A stretch of 64,000 bases of DNA from an uncultured Alphaproteobacteria bacterium. Its GTDB lineage: Bacteria; Pseudomonadota; Alphaproteobacteria; Rickettsiales; CAIJLX01. Every line of letters begins with the position of its first letter. Within the stretch, counting starts at the first letter, position 1. Of this stretch, positions 1 to 7,740 are shown one piece after another. Location of the stretch: assembly GCA_903821695.1 (NCBI GenBank), contig CAIJLX010000051.1, positions 1-64,000 of the forward strand, in the 5' to 3' direction. The notes below the pieces were generated by a model. It searched no databases. It saw only the letters and a list, made by a program, of their open reading frames with translations, and was not told the DNA's origin. The position numbers and the translations under genes were made by a program.

Positions 1-239
1 AATGTTGCGTCACTGTGGGTTACAGCGTATGCCACCACAGTGCTATGATCCAGTTTCCACGGCCGAGAACCCATCGGCCTAGGCGATAAATCACCGCCCG
101 TTTTCTTCGCTAAAGTGATCCAGCGTTGTAGAGTCGTGTGTGCAAGACGAAATATCTTGCAGCCATCATCACGATTACCACCTTTAGACACGTATCCAAC
201 CGCTCGCTCTCTCAAATCTATCGAATATGCTCGTGTCAT
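1..239 (-). mobile_element. IS630-family transposase, N-terminal part (runs off window edge)
   Basis: Minus strand from ATG at 239 is open to the window edge: MTRAYSIDLRERAVGYVSKGGNRDDGCKIFRLAHTTLQRWITLAKKTGGDLSPRPMGSRPWKLDHSTVVAYAVTHSDAT; the HTH N-terminus is typical of IS630 transposases. Not in the ORF track because it is cut by the edge. Confidence 0.8.
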
Positions 240-335
240 AAATGGCAACATAACACATCTAATTAAATTGGGAAATACTATATTACCGCCCAGAACGGCA
301 AAGACGCTTTAATACAACTCTGGCACCACCCGGAA

Positions 336-1097
336 GTGCAGGTGATTATTCTGGACTGGATGATGCCTGTTATGGATGGGATGGATTTTCTTTTCCGGTT
401 ACGGCAGAATCAGCAATTTGATCGCGTTCCGGTTATTTTCCAAACCGCCAGAACGTCACCTGAGCACATCGCCACGGGTCTGGCCGCAGGTGTGTTTTAT
501 TATCTGCAAAAACCCTATGCCTCAAGAATTTTACAAGCTCTGGTTGAAGCTGCGCTACGGGATGCCGCGCAGTGGCAAGCACTGCAATCACATTGTGCCA
601 CACTTTCCAAGAAATCCCATGATTTATGCCGGGCACTGATCCGCATGCGTAATAGCGAGTTTGGCTTTAGAACACCCGCACAGGCGCGGCGAGTGGCTTC
701 GCTGCTGGCTTCCTGCTTCCCTGATCCTTCACAGGTGGTGATTGGCATTCTTGAGCTGATGATGAACGCGGTTGAACATGGCAATCTTGGTTTCAGTTTT
801 AGCGAAAAACGCAAGCTGCTTGAGCAACGTGAGTGGGAGAGAGCAGTACAACACCGGCTCTGCCAAGAAGAATATATGGAAAAAGAAGCCAGTGTGTATG
901 TCACCAAACAAGGCAGAAATATCGAGCTGGTGATTGAGGATCAGGGTGGCGGATTTGACTGGAAACCCTTTCTTTCACTGAATGTTGAACGCGCGGATGC
1001 GCCCAACGGGCGAGGTATTGTACTCGCCAAACAAGATTTTGACGTGATCGAATTTCAGAAAAATGGTAGTCGGGTCGTCTGTCGCAAGACGATTTAG
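336..1097 (+). pseudogene. Response regulator receiver + HATPase (RsbW-like) protein, apparently N-terminally truncated
   Basis: VIILDWMMPVMDGMDFL receiver motif and ELMMNAVEHGN...IEDQGGGFDW...NGRGIVLAK HATPase motifs. The frame extends upstream as GKYYITAQNGKDALIQLWHHPEVQ to about 267 but lacks the N-terminal acidic pocket; an in-frame stop lies at 264 next to the IS630 fragment. Confidence 0.7.
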
Positions 1098-1306
1098 TAC
1101 TTTTTGGCCTCTGCGTTTGCTTTGTTTTTCTCTATCTCTATTGCTCTTTCAGTCGCCATTTTTACAATTTTGCTAAGATCAATGCCTGCTGATATTGCCA
1201 CAGATGCAATAATATCCAAAGGTCGCGGTATTCGACAAATCTTTATTTTTATTTACAACCGGGTTTATTAACATTTTCTTAAGCTATCCGGGCTTATATT
1301 GGGGGC

Positions 1307-2125
1307 ATGAAGAAAAAAGAACATACGCCAGAGGAGGCAATTTCAAAATTTCTAATAATTCACCTAAACGGCGAAGAGCCTCGCCTGCTAGGTTTTTATA
1401 AAACCAAGCAGGAAAAAGAAGATACAAACAGAATACCTCACTGGCTCAATAAAGCACTACCCAAAAAAGACCTGGAGATATTCGGCATCCAATCTTTGAT
1501 CAGAGTCAGAGCAAATACCCAGGAAAGACCTTGTTTGGATTGGGTGAAAATGGAAGTGCATGACGCCAAGACATTCAAAGAGAAATTCCCAAATACAAAA
1601 ATGTTTACAGTCGAGGAACTCTTCCAAACCGCAGAGAAAGCGCGCGGCGAAAACGGCAATACTATTCTAAAATTTGATAAAAGAAAACCGGCAATCGCGG
1701 CAATAGAAGTTTTGCAGACTAATTTTTTCTATCCGGCAGCCCCAAACTTTAATGGGGAGAAAAAGAAAGGTGATCCTTATCAAATTGATGTCTCATTCAT
1801 CGATTTTAGAAAATCTCCCTTCGCGGATTTGGTTTCAAAAATAGATTGGAGACCTTCGCCCCAGAATCTACAATCATTAAGGAAGAAAGCGAGTGTAAAT
1901 GAAACTCCGTCGCCGAGCGAAGAGCGCTGTTTTGCAACACATCCCAAAGAGGATGAAAAGGATTTTGCTAATATGGTGCGTTGGCTGCGTTTGTTAACCG
2001 ACATTGATATTCAAGCTGAGAAGGGGATAATTTCCTATCCACGCGGTAGTTTTTTGGATTTAAGAAAAATTTTCCCCGGTGCAAACATTCCTGATCCTCC
2101 TGCAATACAAAAAACGCTTTTTTAA
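1307..2125 (+). CDS. Hypothetical protein (272 aa)
   Basis: Long ORF with plausible upstream signals; no family recognised. Confidence 0.7.
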   Translation: MKKKEHTPEEAISKFLIIHLNGEEPRLLGFYKTKQEKEDTNRIPHWLNKALPKKDLEIFGIQSLIRVRANTQERPCLDWVKMEVHDAKTFKEKFPNTKMFTVEELFQTAEKARGENGNTILKFDKRKPAIAAIEVLQTNFFYPAAPNFNGEKKKGDPYQIDVSFIDFRKSPFADLVSKIDWRPSPQNLQSLRKKASVNETPSPSEERCFATHPKEDEKDFANMVRWLRLLTDIDIQAEKGIISYPRGSFLDLRKIFPGANIPDPPAIQKTLF

Positions 2126-2170
2126 TCCGGTGATAATTCTTTCTTAACAACTTTCTAGTAAGCTTATATT

Positions 2171-3094
2171 ATGAACGATATGCCAACAAAAGACTTGGAT
2201 TCGCGTGCACTGAAAGGAGCTCATTTCACGGAATTAGGTCGGCTGCTTAGAACGCTTTTGGATGCGCTGGAACGTCTGGATGATGCCCCGCGCTTTATCA
2301 AAGATGGTTATTTTGGCAATTACTATCAGGCCCCGTCCTTTAGACGTGGTGACCGTGATTATGGCATCTATCAAGAAGCCGAGGGATTTGATGATTCAGG
2401 TATTCGTGGCTGTGCTCTGATCGCCGATCGTATCCATGGCCCACTCCGACTGTTTGGCCGCCAAGTTGGCGAGCGCTTTGACATTTACAGTGTCCCTGCC
2501 ACAGCAGAATATAAAGCCAAACTAGATTGGTATCTGGAAGCCTATGAAATCATGGTGGAGGTAAGTGGCGATGATTATCGCAAAATTCCGCGTCCATTAA
2601 CACAAGAAGTGCTAGAGAAAATGAGGACACATCCTTCAATGAACGAAGGGAGGATAGAAGTATTAAGCGAAGTAAAACCAAAGTTTTTTGAAGATCTCGA
2701 TCTGTTTTTAGTAAATCTGGAGCAACATTTATGCCAATACCACACCATCCGTTTTAACCTAAACAGTGAGCAGGGCATACTCTTACAAAACTCTGTGCCG
2801 CTTAATTCCGACCCACAGCTAGACTTGTCATATCCTGCACATGCAATGTTTTCGATGCGTTATGTTGGCGAAGCCATGATAGATCGTAACGAAGTCCCGG
2901 AAGCAGTATTTCAATGGCTTAACCGCGCGGTACATCAGGAAAACTCAATCACGGACACCATTAAAAACCTATTTATGCAAATTTTTGAAGCGGGACGAGG
3001 ACAAGGAGTATCAGAGGATGAAATTAAGAGCCAGCTGCCGAAAGTAACTGCAAGAAACATGATGAAAACGATCCACGACCATGTCTCCAATTGA
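2171..3094 (+). CDS. Hypothetical protein (307 aa)
   Basis: Long ORF, same strand and close behind the preceding ORF; no family recognised. Confidence 0.75.
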   Translation: MNDMPTKDLDSRALKGAHFTELGRLLRTLLDALERLDDAPRFIKDGYFGNYYQAPSFRRGDRDYGIYQEAEGFDDSGIRGCALIADRIHGPLRLFGRQVGERFDIYSVPATAEYKAKLDWYLEAYEIMVEVSGDDYRKIPRPLTQEVLEKMRTHPSMNEGRIEVLSEVKPKFFEDLDLFLVNLEQHLCQYHTIRFNLNSEQGILLQNSVPLNSDPQLDLSYPAHAMFSMRYVGEAMIDRNEVPEAVFQWLNRAVHQENSITDTIKNLFMQIFEAGRGQGVSEDEIKSQLPKVTARNMMKTIHDHVSN

Positions 3095-3127
3095 GATTCA
3101 GGAATCGCCATGATTTGTCATACTCCA

Positions 3128-4156
3128 TTAAAGTAGAGATGCCCTCAAAGCGGCTTCGAATTTTCCATAGGAGTCCATACCTCGTGTCCTGAGTACGTTC
3201 AATTTCGAAAGATCGTACTCGAGAAAGTCAGTAGCCATTTCGGGGCGTTCAAACGTTTCGTTGATTCGGACAGTTGGGATATCCTGAAAAAGCAAAGACC
3301 GGAGCTGATCCATGGAATGAGTGTTGATCTCAAGAGTCTTTTGAAGCAATTTGACTGACGTAAGTTGCTGAACCAACCACTTTTTGGGAGATCGGATGGG
3401 ACTCAGCGTCACTGGTGGATACGATCCGACACCAACGCTAACGATGCGGATATCCTGACGCTCCTTCCCAAGTGCTACTAAAGCATCAGTTATCGCGTAA
3501 AGAGCTGGGTTGTTTGCGCAGAAACCGCCATCGATAAGCTCAAACGATGCGCCGCTTCCTGTGGTAACTGTTTTTCTGTTGAAGAACGGATATGCAGAAC
3601 AGGAAGCTTGAACGGCCTCCCCAATTGGAACTCCAAAGCCGGGCAGAAAGGTGCTTTTGCGACCGAATGCTTGATTTACGTTGGCCTTGAAGATCATCGG
3701 CTGCTCGGTGACCCACTTGGTTGAAACAATCCCAATACCAGTTTTTACCTCTTCAAAACTCGCCTTCCCAAACACGTCGACAGACAGATTGGCAAGCGCG
3801 ATCGACTTGCCAGAAGCACTTGATTGCTTCATGATTGCCGGAACATACTTCCGATAGTATTGATGAATTTCTTCAACCGTGTGCCCGAGGGCAATCAACG
3901 CTGCAATGATCGCTCCGGTACTTGTGCCGTAAACAAGGTCAAAGCGTTTGTGCAAAGGGCATTGCAGCAACCCTTCGATCTCGTGCAAGACCCCCAGGGT
4001 ATAGAACCCCTTGGAACCACCGCCGTCGAGCGACAGGATTCGAAACACGCCATCGCTTTTATGTTCTATGTGTGGCGCCATTTTCCGGTGTGATTTATTG
4101 GGGCGAGCAGTGCGTTGAACGACGGGTAGGGTATACGGAAATTGATCAAATCGCAA
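3128..4156 (-). CDS. Patatin-like phospholipase (CapV-like)
   Basis: DGGGSKGFYTLGVL oxyanion motif, GTSTG nucleophile elbow, DGG (IDGGFCANNPA) catalytic Asp motif. Alternative start at 4081 (MAPHIEHKSDGVFRILSLDGGG). Confidence 0.88.
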   Translation of the reverse strand: MRFDQFPYTLPVVQRTARPNKSHRKMAPHIEHKSDGVFRILSLDGGGSKGFYTLGVLHEIEGLLQCPLHKRFDLVYGTSTGAIIAALIALGHTVEEIHQYYRKYVPAIMKQSSASGKSIALANLSVDVFGKASFEEVKTGIGIVSTKWVTEQPMIFKANVNQAFGRKSTFLPGFGVPIGEAVQASCSAYPFFNRKTVTTGSGASFELIDGGFCANNPALYAITDALVALGKERQDIRIVSVGVGSYPPVTLSPIRSPKKWLVQQLTSVKLLQKTLEINTHSMDQLRSLLFQDIPTVRINETFERPEMATDFLEYDLSKLNVLRTRGMDSYGKFEAALRASLL

Positions 4157-4178
4157 CCACGCGCCTCATTTTGACTCA

Positions 4179-4197
4179 ATTCAAGCTCCGCTTGAAT
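4179..4197. repeat. Perfect 8-bp inverted repeat, 3-nt loop
   Basis: ATTCAAGC-tcc-GCTTGAAT just upstream of the patatin gene. Confidence 0.6.
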
Positions 4198-4290
4198 CAC
4201 CCTTAAGGCTACACTCTGATCTGATCCTGCGCAGCGAAGTTATTGCCTAGCGTCAGCAAATTACTGTCCAGCCGCAATCGATGAAGCCAC

Positions 4291-4327
4291 AAAAAAGGCG
4301 TCGTGGAGGAAATCCCCACGGCGCCTT
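4291..4327 (-). terminator. Rho-independent terminator for the minus-strand ORF ending at 4347
   Basis: On the minus strand: AAGGCGCCGTGGGGATTTCCTCCACGACGCCTT followed by TTTTTT. Confidence 0.7.
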
Positions 4328-4346
4328 AAAGCAAAAAACGTTCCAA

Positions 4347-4649
4347 TCACTCGACAAACTCGATTACTTCCTTGCGACCGGTTTTGATCTCTGTGCCTTC
4401 CAGCCGGATTCCCGGCTTGGACATCATGACAACAATAGCGGCCTGAATTAGCGGACTTTGATCTGGCCACAAATCCAGTGGCTGCCCATTGCGGGTCATC
4501 ACAACCTCTATCCCCCCCTCTGGCAACTGTTCGAGATTAGTGCTTCCCCTCAAGCTGGCAGTAAACAGATACCTAACGAATGTGGTGTCACCTTCCTGTC
4601 TAACAACCTCTACCCCTCTCGTTATGCTCCAGCAAAAAAATCCTACCAT
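4347..4649 (-). CDS. Hypothetical protein (100 aa)
   Basis: ORF followed by a good intrinsic terminator; no family recognised. Confidence 0.5.
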   Translation of the reverse strand: MVGFFCWSITRGVEVVRQEGDTTFVRYLFTASLRGSTNLEQLPEGGIEVVMTRNGQPLDLWPDQSPLIQAAIVVMMSKPGIRLEGTEIKTGRKEVIEFVE

Positions 4650-4934
4650 TTTTTTTCTCCAGATCCCGCCATTTCGACCAGACCTCTAGCCGCGCGGCAG
4701 AGGATATCTTAATCGCTCTACAGGCGGAAAATCAGTCTGTACTATGCACATAAAATGTTACGGTTTTATGACGATTCAAAACATTTAGTAGTGTTGATGG
4801 TCGCTGTGGCCATTGGTTATAGCGAACTCCGACTTATTTCATGCCAAGCTACTTTCTTGCCTTTGCCTCAAGAAGCAGAAAGCAGGAAGGTGAGCGTGTG
4901 TTAAATACTTATTGTTAAATTAAGTGTGTTACGC

Positions 4935-4943
4935 TGTGGATAA
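4935..4943 (-). promoter_or_regulatory. Consensus DnaA box (TTATCCACA)
   Basis: TGTGGATAA on + strand = TTATCCACA on - strand, next to an AT-rich tract and upstream of iteron-like repeats. Confidence 0.6.
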
Positions 4944-4986
4944 GTGCAAATAACATACTGAGTTGCATTGCTTATTCAGAAAGGCC

Positions 4987-5079
4987 GGTGTGTAAACTAT
5001 CGAAACTCGGTGTGTAAACCATCGAAGAAAGGTGTGCAAACTGTCGAAACGTTGTCAAAGGTGGGTGAAATATCGAAAG
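4987..5079 (+). repeat. Four iteron-like direct repeats, consensus GGTGTGTAAACTATCGAAAC
   Basis: Copies at 4987-5006, 5009-5028, 5031-5050 and 5060-5079; start-to-start spacing 22, 22 and 29 bp. Confidence 0.8.
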
Positions 5080-5160
5080 AACCGACCAGTGGGTTCGTTT
5101 TAGAGTCGGGGTATTACCCCGATTCTTAATCAATCCAAGAAGAATAAAAAGAAGGGTGAT

Positions 5161-5973
5161 TTGGTCGAACTCATTGCTGGTATGCAGGAAGGCAAGGCGA
5201 TTGCTTGTTCACTTCTTCATTTTTTGAATCCAGATGAAGCAAGGCGAATGGGGCAGCCGCCAGCTCTTATAGCCCAATCAAAAACCATCCCTTCTTTGGC
5301 CACTTTACGTGATAGCGCACACCAGTTTAGCCATCTGCTATTTCCAAAAGATAATGGGATTTGGCGACAGCCGGAAGTTCAACAGGCTATTCGCTACACG
5401 AATTTGTGGCCTTGGGCACGAAAATCATTCATGTCTGAAGATATGTCTGACAAGCTAAGGTCTGCGCATAAAAATACCGCAGACAGAGCCGCAGTTTCTT
5501 ATTTCATAAATAACTTGTCTCATCGCTCTGATGCCGAGAATACTCTCTACGTTCTAGTAACTCACGATGGCCCACTGATCAGTGATTTTGTAAAATTTAT
5601 AACAGGTGTTGAAAAAAGTGAGATAAGGGTGAAAGGAGAAGGCAGAAAAAAACAAATTTTCTGGAATTCAGTCGATAAAGAACAATACGAAGAGCGTGGG
5701 TTGGCTATTCCAGATAAGCTAGCTCACAGCGCTATTTTAACTGGCAAAGAACTCGTCGAGTTTATCCATCGTGAACAAGTAAGGATACAGAAGCATTGCC
5801 ATACGACGCACGAACTTACTCAGGCAATGGAGAGGTTAACGGATGCCGTCGATCTCCTTGAATTGAAAGTTAAAAAAGATATTCAGGCGCATGGCTTAAC
5901 TGAAGGCGGAACATTCGCTAAGAGGATTAGAGACACAGCTGCCCATAGCAAACATATAGGCGAAAGTAGATAA
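5161..5973 (+). CDS. Hypothetical protein downstream of iteron-like repeats (270 aa)
   Basis: Long ORF; TTG start in track. The frame is open upstream to 5104 (SRGITPILNQSKKNKKKGD), so the true start is uncertain. No recognised Rep family. Confidence 0.65.
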   Translation: MVELIAGMQEGKAIACSLLHFLNPDEARRMGQPPALIAQSKTIPSLATLRDSAHQFSHLLFPKDNGIWRQPEVQQAIRYTNLWPWARKSFMSEDMSDKLRSAHKNTADRAAVSYFINNLSHRSDAENTLYVLVTHDGPLISDFVKFITGVEKSEIRVKGEGRKKQIFWNSVDKEQYEERGLAIPDKLAHSAILTGKELVEFIHREQVRIQKHCHTTHELTQAMERLTDAVDLLELKVKKDIQAHGLTEGGTFAKRIRDTAAHSKHIGESR

Positions 5974-6068
5974 GATGAGAGAATATCTTGGTAGTAACCT
6001 TGATTTACCCAGTATCGCACTCATTCCGAAGAGTCCGTATGACGTTGCGGCATGGGAGTAAAACCAAA

Positions 6069-6120
6069 TAAACACAAATGTTTATATGGCGGTTGACAAT
6101 TAAACTTATGTGTTTATTAT
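6069..6120 (+). promoter_or_regulatory. Promoter with two 16-bp dyad operators
   Basis: -35 TTGACA 6093-6098, 16-nt spacer, -10 TATTAT 6115-6120. Operators TAAACACAAATGTTTA (6069-6084) and TAAACTTATGTGTTTA (6101-6116), 32 bp apart. Confidence 0.65.
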
Positions 6121-6182: not shown

Positions 6183-6482
6183 TTGGTAGGAGAAAAAATG
6201 GCTGAAATGAATCCCGTCCATGAGCAACCAATGGATGTAGGATCGGTCTTAATGGAAGTGCTGTTTGAATTGAGGCGCGTAAAGGGCAAGGCGGATGAAC
6301 TTTGGAAGCTACAAGAGGTGGCTGATTATTTGCGCTATCCCAAAACCACCACACAGCAACGGATTATCTGCCAGCCAGATTTTCCAGCTCCTACAAAAAT
6401 TAGAACGGGAAAAGATTCAGAAAGCGGTGGCAAACGCTGGCTCGCTCGTGAAGTTCGTGCCTGGGCCTTAAAACATCGTTAA
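6183..6482 (+). CDS. AlpA/excisionase-like helix-turn-helix DNA-binding protein
   Basis: LWKLQEVADYLRYPKTTTQQRIICQPDFPAPTKI...KRWLAREVRAWA resembles AlpA/HTH_17 proteins; adjacent to an integrase. Confidence 0.75.
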   Translation: MVGEKMAEMNPVHEQPMDVGSVLMEVLFELRRVKGKADELWKLQEVADYLRYPKTTTQQRIICQPDFPAPTKIRTGKDSESGGKRWLAREVRAWALKHR

Positions 6483-6519: not shown

Positions 6520-7509
6520 TCAATCTAACCTGCTCGCAATTTCTGAGGCCGTGGCATTATAATAGATCATCAGGCTGCGTGGGTCTTTGTGGCCAACCAT
6601 CCGCGCCAGATCAAGCACATCTAGTTTCCGTGCCAGCCGTGTAAGTGCTTCGTGGCGGGTGTCGTGAAAGTGCAGGTTATCAATTCCTGTCAGCATCACT
6701 GATCGCCGGAAGATAACCTCCGCGCTTGCTTGTGGAAATGAAAACAAATTACCCTCCGGCGCGGGCTCCATCTTTTCTAGCAATTGTACCGCACGTTTGT
6801 TTAAAGGCACGTTCCGACGTGTTCCGTTTTTTGTATCGTGCAGTGTGAGATAGCGTTCATTAAGAAAAATATCCGGCCATTCTAGATTCCAAATCTCTCC
6901 CTGCCGCATTGCCGTTTCTAGCGCCAGCAGAAACGCCACCGCCAACTGTTGACGTTTGGTACGTATGGGCTCATTTTCTTCATAACCAAGTGCTAGCAGG
7001 ACGCGATCTATTTCTTCTTGGTTGATACGTCGGTCGCGTGGTGGAGATTTTCTTGGTTTATCGACGTCGCGCATTACTTCCTGGCTTATCCACTTCCACT
7101 TTACGCGTGCCACCTTTAATACTGAGCTAATTAGACCAAGTTCACGGCGAACGCTGGCAGGGGAAATTGTTTGTGTTTTTATCCAGCGGGTAATATCTTC
7201 GGGGGTGAGGTCAGAAAGAATGTAATCAGCAATCGATTGACGTAGTAGTTTTTTCAGACGTATTATTTCCCAGCGCTCTCCTTTTTTTGTAGGACATATT
7301 TCTTCTTGATAGCGGCGCATGGCATCACCGACCGTTTTGCCAGTAGCATTAAAGCCTTTCGCGGCAACCCGTTGCTCCAGATTAGCTGACCATGAAATGG
7401 CTTCCAGCTTGGTATTAAAGGTTTCAGATTTATAAAAAGAGTCATCGCCTACCTTCCGGCGAACCTCTGCAATCCATTTCCCTGTTTTCAGTTTAGCAAT
7501 CCGCGCCAT
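6520..7509 (-). CDS. Tyrosine recombinase / phage-type integrase
   Basis: LHFHDTRHEALTRLARKLDVLDLARMVGHKDPRSLMIYYN contains the catalytic HxxR, GH and Y motifs; adjacent to tRNA-Thr. Confidence 0.95.
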   Translation of the reverse strand: MARIAKLKTGKWIAEVRRKVGDDSFYKSETFNTKLEAISWSANLEQRVAAKGFNATGKTVGDAMRRYQEEICPTKKGERWEIIRLKKLLRQSIADYILSDLTPEDITRWIKTQTISPASVRRELGLISSVLKVARVKWKWISQEVMRDVDKPRKSPPRDRRINQEEIDRVLLALGYEENEPIRTKRQQLAVAFLLALETAMRQGEIWNLEWPDIFLNERYLTLHDTKNGTRRNVPLNKRAVQLLEKMEPAPEGNLFSFPQASAEVIFRRSVMLTGIDNLHFHDTRHEALTRLARKLDVLDLARMVGHKDPRSLMIYYNATASEIASRLD

Positions 7510-7664: not shown

Positions 7665-7740
7665 TGGTGCCGCTTAGGTGACTCGAACACCTGACCTACT
7701 GATTACAAATCAGTTGCTCTACCAACTGAGCTAAAGCGGC
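7665..7740 (-). tRNA. tRNA-Thr (anticodon UGU)
   Basis: Minus strand: GCCGCTTTAGCTCAGTTGGTAGAGCAACTGATTTGTAATCAGTAGGTCAGGTGTTCGAGTCACCTAAGCGGCACCA, cloverleaf with TGT anticodon and encoded CCA. Confidence 0.97.

Follow-up and report, generated by a model that had tools for sequence, protein, structure and literature searches.

A set of short direct repeats standing immediately in front of an open reading frame, close to an integrase and a tRNA gene, raises the question of whether a 64-kb stretch of DNA from an uncultured alphaproteobacterium (referred to here, in its entirety, as the window) harbors the replication origin of a plasmid and, if so, what kind of plasmid it came from and whether the gene behind the repeats encodes its initiator. 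A sequence-only reading of the window had proposed a plasmid-like, iteron-controlled origin within an integrated element, followed by a 270-aa open reading frame that would be either a new type of initiator or a gene that had replaced the initiator. The host assembly has no close relatives in the genome set with which it was compared (264 relatives).

Origin elements and their plasmid relatives

The left end of the putative origin is formed by an AT-rich putative unwinding element (4898-4934, plus strand) containing three (G/T)TGTTA repeats, with TGTTA at 4899, 4913, and 4927. Positions 4902-4930 within this element have an A+T content of 83%, matched or exceeded by 0.16% of 29-bp windows, such that the AT-rich tract recognized in the sequence-only reading is indeed present and ranks in the top 0.2% of the window. 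Next to it lies a DnaA box, TTATCCACA (4935-4943, minus strand), which is an exact match to the consensus, as had been claimed; a DnaA box alone is weak evidence, given that three are found in the window where 0.43 are expected. A repeat search identified four 22-nt iterons on the plus strand, at 4986-5007, 5008-5029, 5030-5051, and 5059-5080, the fourth beginning 29 bp after the third, which yields a spacing of 22/22/29. When up to three mismatches are allowed, the 18-bp iteron core, GGTGTGTAAACTATCGAA, occurs at exactly four sites in the 64 kb, all between 4987 and 5077, as compared to an expectation of 0.01 from shuffled sequence, and a search of the whole 2.1-Mb assembly for the iteron pattern with one mismatch returned these four sites and one stray. 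The four repeats of about 20 bp that had been noted are accordingly present at 4986-5080 and lie far beyond chance. The sequence AGTGGGT (5088-5095, plus strand), 29 bp after the fourth iteron, may be the stub of a fifth; not significant by itself, it is in phase with the fifth iteron of Bartonella and Roseovarius origins. The origin homology ends, and homology to a gene fragment begins, at a 32-bp junction segment (5096-5127) that includes a hairpin of 11 pairs (5102-5126, with stems at 5102-5112 and 5116-5126), also described previously, which is real though modest, given its z of -2.1.

The kinship of these elements was investigated by blastn comparison of positions 4860-5160 with 72,556 plasmids, in which 22 plasmid records were matched. 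The strongest matches were to three Bartonella plasmids (E = 2e-10), and weaker ones were to plasmids of Roseovarius, Sulfitobacter, Roseobacter, Phaeobacter, Gemmobacter, and others. Examination of the downstream gene in ten of the 22 records revealed an annotated 'replication initiator protein A' just downstream, and in the same orientation, in all seven that have an annotated gene there; in the other three, the match is at or close to an end of the record, or no downstream gene is listed. Three of these seven proteins were profile-scanned, and all belong to the replication initiator protein A (RPA) family of Pfam, PF10134 (E < 1e-75).

Similarity to these plasmids extends to the layout of the origin. 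In the Bartonella origin, GTGTTAAATATA repeats are followed immediately by a DnaA box and then by iterons spaced 22/22/28, with a fifth iteron copy before the rep start. The window shows these elements in an identical order, at a spacing of 22/22/29. Three GTGTTA repeats approximately 11-12 bp apart are found in the RPA origins of Bartonella, Roseovarius, Pukyongiella, and Acetobacter, and in the Bartonella HY406 as well as the Roseovarius THAF27 plasmid the AT-rich repeats are followed directly by a DnaA box. Specifically, the window resembles Bartonella sp. HY406 unnamed3 (NZ_CP104896.1) and Roseovarius pTHAF27_c (NZ_CP045396.1) in its AT-rich GTGTTA repeats with an adjacent DnaA box, in its four iterons, which agree in type and very nearly in spacing, and in the presence of a gene right behind them in the same orientation. 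It differs from both in that this gene does not belong to PF10134, no member of which was detected in the genome, and in that the origin is chromosomal and lies beside an integrase. RPA origins picked by protein similarity are more varied than the blastn matches: the general scheme is shared by those of Acetobacter, Pukyongiella, and a genome of the same order as the host (G113), and it was not clearly seen in those of Haematobacter and Pseudomonas amygdali.

The general rule for iteron plasmids is that Rep occupies the iterons, with possible help from DnaA at its own box, and that the AT-rich repeats melt (PMC4980987). A phage origin was considered and rejected, the matches being short and weak, and a search of the open-access literature found no description of this origin. 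Taken together, the AT-rich GTGTTA repeats with their DnaA box and the 22-bp-spaced iterons, which resemble the iterons of RPA plasmids, support the assignment of positions 4898-5095 to a known kind of element, the predicted origin, acting in cis, of an iteron plasmid of the RPA type (PF10134), and so make specific the earlier proposal of a plasmid-like iteron origin in an integrated element.

The open reading frame behind the iterons

The 270-aa open reading frame is called from a TTG start at 5161 to 5973, with the frame open from about 5104. A Shine-Dalgarno-like AGAAGGG precedes the TTG, and no consensus promoter was found between 4650 and 5161. In agreement with its description as unrecognized, the protein has no convincing match in Pfam, PHROGs, NCBIfam, PADLOC, or PDB sequences, and the profile search that had been suggested as a check yielded no convincing match to a Rep or DNA-binding family, although such a match would be expected of a plasmid initiator.

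A six-frame search of relatives revealed homologs in six other genomes of the same order. The window copy is about 34% identical to residues 203-421 of a 517-aa relative, with homology beginning at position 5128, and it represents the C-terminal ~60% of the family protein. The sequence at 5128-5973 (plus strand) is, by homology, a C-terminal fragment of an unnamed chromosomal protein of 440-550 aa (the open frame in the relatives being about 440-560 codons), and it occupies the position that rep holds in RPA plasmids. The first ~200 residues are missing from the window copy, and the genome to which the window belongs yielded no other part of the 517-aa relative; with these residues are lost the first two conserved motifs, VDxCAE and DTxQG, and the fragment reads ADRAAV where its relatives have ADxSYL.

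The full-length family comprises six loci GTDB-wide (L046-L051; for example, L046:6001-7647), every one from a metagenome-assembled genome and two carrying the label Rickettsiales, and within GTDB it is confined to this order. Neighboring genes are mostly housekeeping genes in the five relatives with enough flanking sequence, no comparable repeat array is present upstream of the family loci in relatives, and neither the window's open reading frame nor a full-length relative was found on plasmids. Searches with full-length relatives gave no match in Pfam, in the defense families of PADLOC, or in the PDB, and Foldseek on a full-length relative returned nothing at E <= 0.001. The invariant acidic residues D49, E88, D352, and D380 occur in an order fitting the PIN motif, which suggests that the full-length proteins may be PIN-like nucleases.

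AlphaFold2 modeled a full-length relative with a pLDDT of 84 and a pTM of 0.81 and the window fragment with a pLDDT of 43 and a pTM of 0.32, both models using the same seven sequences, a thin alignment on which to judge the low score of the fragment. Among residues invariant in four close full-length members, 62% are kept in the fragment as compared to 79-93% in those members, which suggests relaxed constraint on the fragment, the window copy also being a divergent branch. No stop codon interrupts the frame over its 270 codons, as might be expected if it encoded a short functional protein or had been truncated recently. The proposal of a new initiator family was rejected because the open reading frame is a truncated member of a chromosomal family: it is a decapitated protein, the relatives of which have no comparable repeats upstream, and modeling of the fragment gave no confident fold. 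As for the suggestion of a gene that replaced the initiator, the position is right, and the replacing sequence is a gene fragment.

Integrase, tRNA gene, and surroundings

To the right of the fragment lie a small HTH/excisionase-like regulator (6201-6482, plus strand; PHROG 4996, E = 2e-19; excisionase/regulator PHROG 66, E = 3e-5), a tyrosine integrase (6520-7509, minus strand; Pfam Phage_integrase, E = 4e-23), and a tRNA-Thr (TGT) gene (7665-7740, minus strand; ARAGORN and Rfam), the presumed attachment gene. The claim of a tRNA-associated integrase was therefore accurate, and a tyrosine integrase beside a tRNA 3' end is what is expected of a tRNA-integrated element. The far end of the element was not found in the contig, so that the term 'integrated' rests on the integrase and tRNA gene next door.

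No copy of the tRNA-Thr 3' end was found farther left along the contig. One candidate left boundary, a 15-bp match at 871-885, was set aside because it falls within an open reading frame and outside the tRNA gene. Three other contigs of the assembly, with no established link to this one, carry partial copies (18-30 bp) of that 3' end (C53:97748-97790, C67:73532-73549, and C108:1660-1681; L052-L054 in genome G000). These lie outside tRNA genes and 1.6-3.7 kb from a contig end, the C53 copy has an integrase-like open reading frame downstream, and all three could be candidate attachment sites of this or other islands.

The insertion sequence that had been placed to the left of the origin was not recovered: the larger open reading frames at 1-4900 were scanned without detection of a transposase, and they encode a patatin-type anti-phage phospholipase, a receiver-plus-ATPase protein, and three unknowns. 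The patatin-like phospholipase (3128-4156, minus strand) scores over the NCBIfam cut-off for DS2_1_antiphage (NF053870), matches PADLOC phospholipase effectors, and is possibly defense cargo of the element. Beside it are open reading frames of 272 and 307 aa (1307-2125 and 2171-3094, both plus strand) with no convincing Pfam, NCBIfam, or PADLOC match. Separately, an 18-nt inverted repeat (89%) at 6067-6120 flanks a near-consensus promoter, TTGACA-16-TATTAT, before the HTH/excisionase-like gene at 6201, of which it is probably the operator.

The missing initiator and the history of the junction

A complete RPA replicon carries a PF10134 gene behind its iterons, and none is present there in the window. 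No gene in the assembly exceeds the PF10134 cut-off (best E = 0.085), although, among 111 contigs, such a gene could have been missed in a gap or lost along with a plasmid, and no remnant of rep was seen in the window. These findings are most probably explained by an RPA-plasmid origin that was stranded in a chromosomal element when a deletion or rearrangement took the initiator and fused a decapitated gene in its place, the origin itself now probably being silent. According to this explanation, an RPA-type plasmid, or an element with its origin, would have integrated next to tRNA-Thr. While the replicon was intact, RPA would have bound the iterons and host DnaA its box, whereupon the AT-rich repeats would have opened and helicase would have been loaded. 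One deletion or rearrangement, with a break at approximately 5095-5127, near the expected start of rep (which in the closest RPA plasmids lies tens of bp behind the last iteron), would then have removed rep together with the front of another, unrelated gene of chromosomal type, leaving the origin fused to the C-terminal part of that gene. Such a single event is the simplest account and the most likely one. Donors are available, as two other genomes of the order have RPA genes: in G113 the gene neighbors one of ParA type and a conjugation-type ATPase, and in G042 it sits at a contig edge. The loss of rep may have been favored because a plasmid origin firing in a chromosome would be harmful, and the origin would thereafter be activated only by the arrival in trans of an RPA protein with matching specificity.

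It is unlikely, although conceivable, that such arrivals are what the locus is for, namely that it is a satellite origin for which an RPA plasmid supplies the initiator in trans, or a decoy in which the iterons titrate the initiator of incoming plasmids; if true, an initiator-less element would exploit incoming RPA plasmids as replication helpers or act as an anti-plasmid iteron decoy. The four iterons, the DnaA box, and the AT-rich repeats look intact, and other members of the order (G113 and G042) have RPA genes. However, the iterons of the window, GTGTGTAAACTATCGA, differ from those of G113, GTGGGTGAAGTGACGA, and the origin was found in this one genome and not in the 264 relatives searched, so that there is no conservation showing selection. 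Salmonella Genomic Island 1 (SGI1), which offers a precedent, comes with a replication module of its own and a known helper plasmid, whereas neither an initiator nor a helper was found for the window's origin. As described in two reports (PMC7826253, PMC7433901), SGI1 resembles the present case as an integrated island holding a plasmid-like oriV; its replication is helper-dependent, and it also destabilizes its helper.

It is very improbable that the junction is an artefact of assembly, in which a plasmid origin was joined to an unrelated chromosomal contig. The division of the assembly into 111 contigs and the inverted repeat at the junction are consistent with such an error, but the assembly yielded neither the rest of the truncated gene nor, on any other contig, this origin or a PF10134 rep gene, partners that such an error would be expected to leave somewhere. 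It is hardly to be credited that the 270-aa protein works as a replacement initiator and has taken over the origin. Its open reading frame has the position and orientation of rep, a Shine-Dalgarno-like sequence, and an open frame, but the protein corresponds to the C-terminal part of a chromosomal family whose upstream regions lack a comparable repeat array, matches no Rep or DNA-binding family, and yields a low-confidence model.

The stranding of an RPA-plasmid origin thus remains the preferred explanation, and it carries a caution for the annotation of similar loci, in that a gene in the position of rep, behind iterons, does not necessarily encode an initiator. More broadly, the findings indicate that plasmids of the RPA type extend into a poorly sampled order of the Alphaproteobacteria that is Rickettsiales-like, and that one such origin has become stranded in a chromosome after the loss of its initiator.
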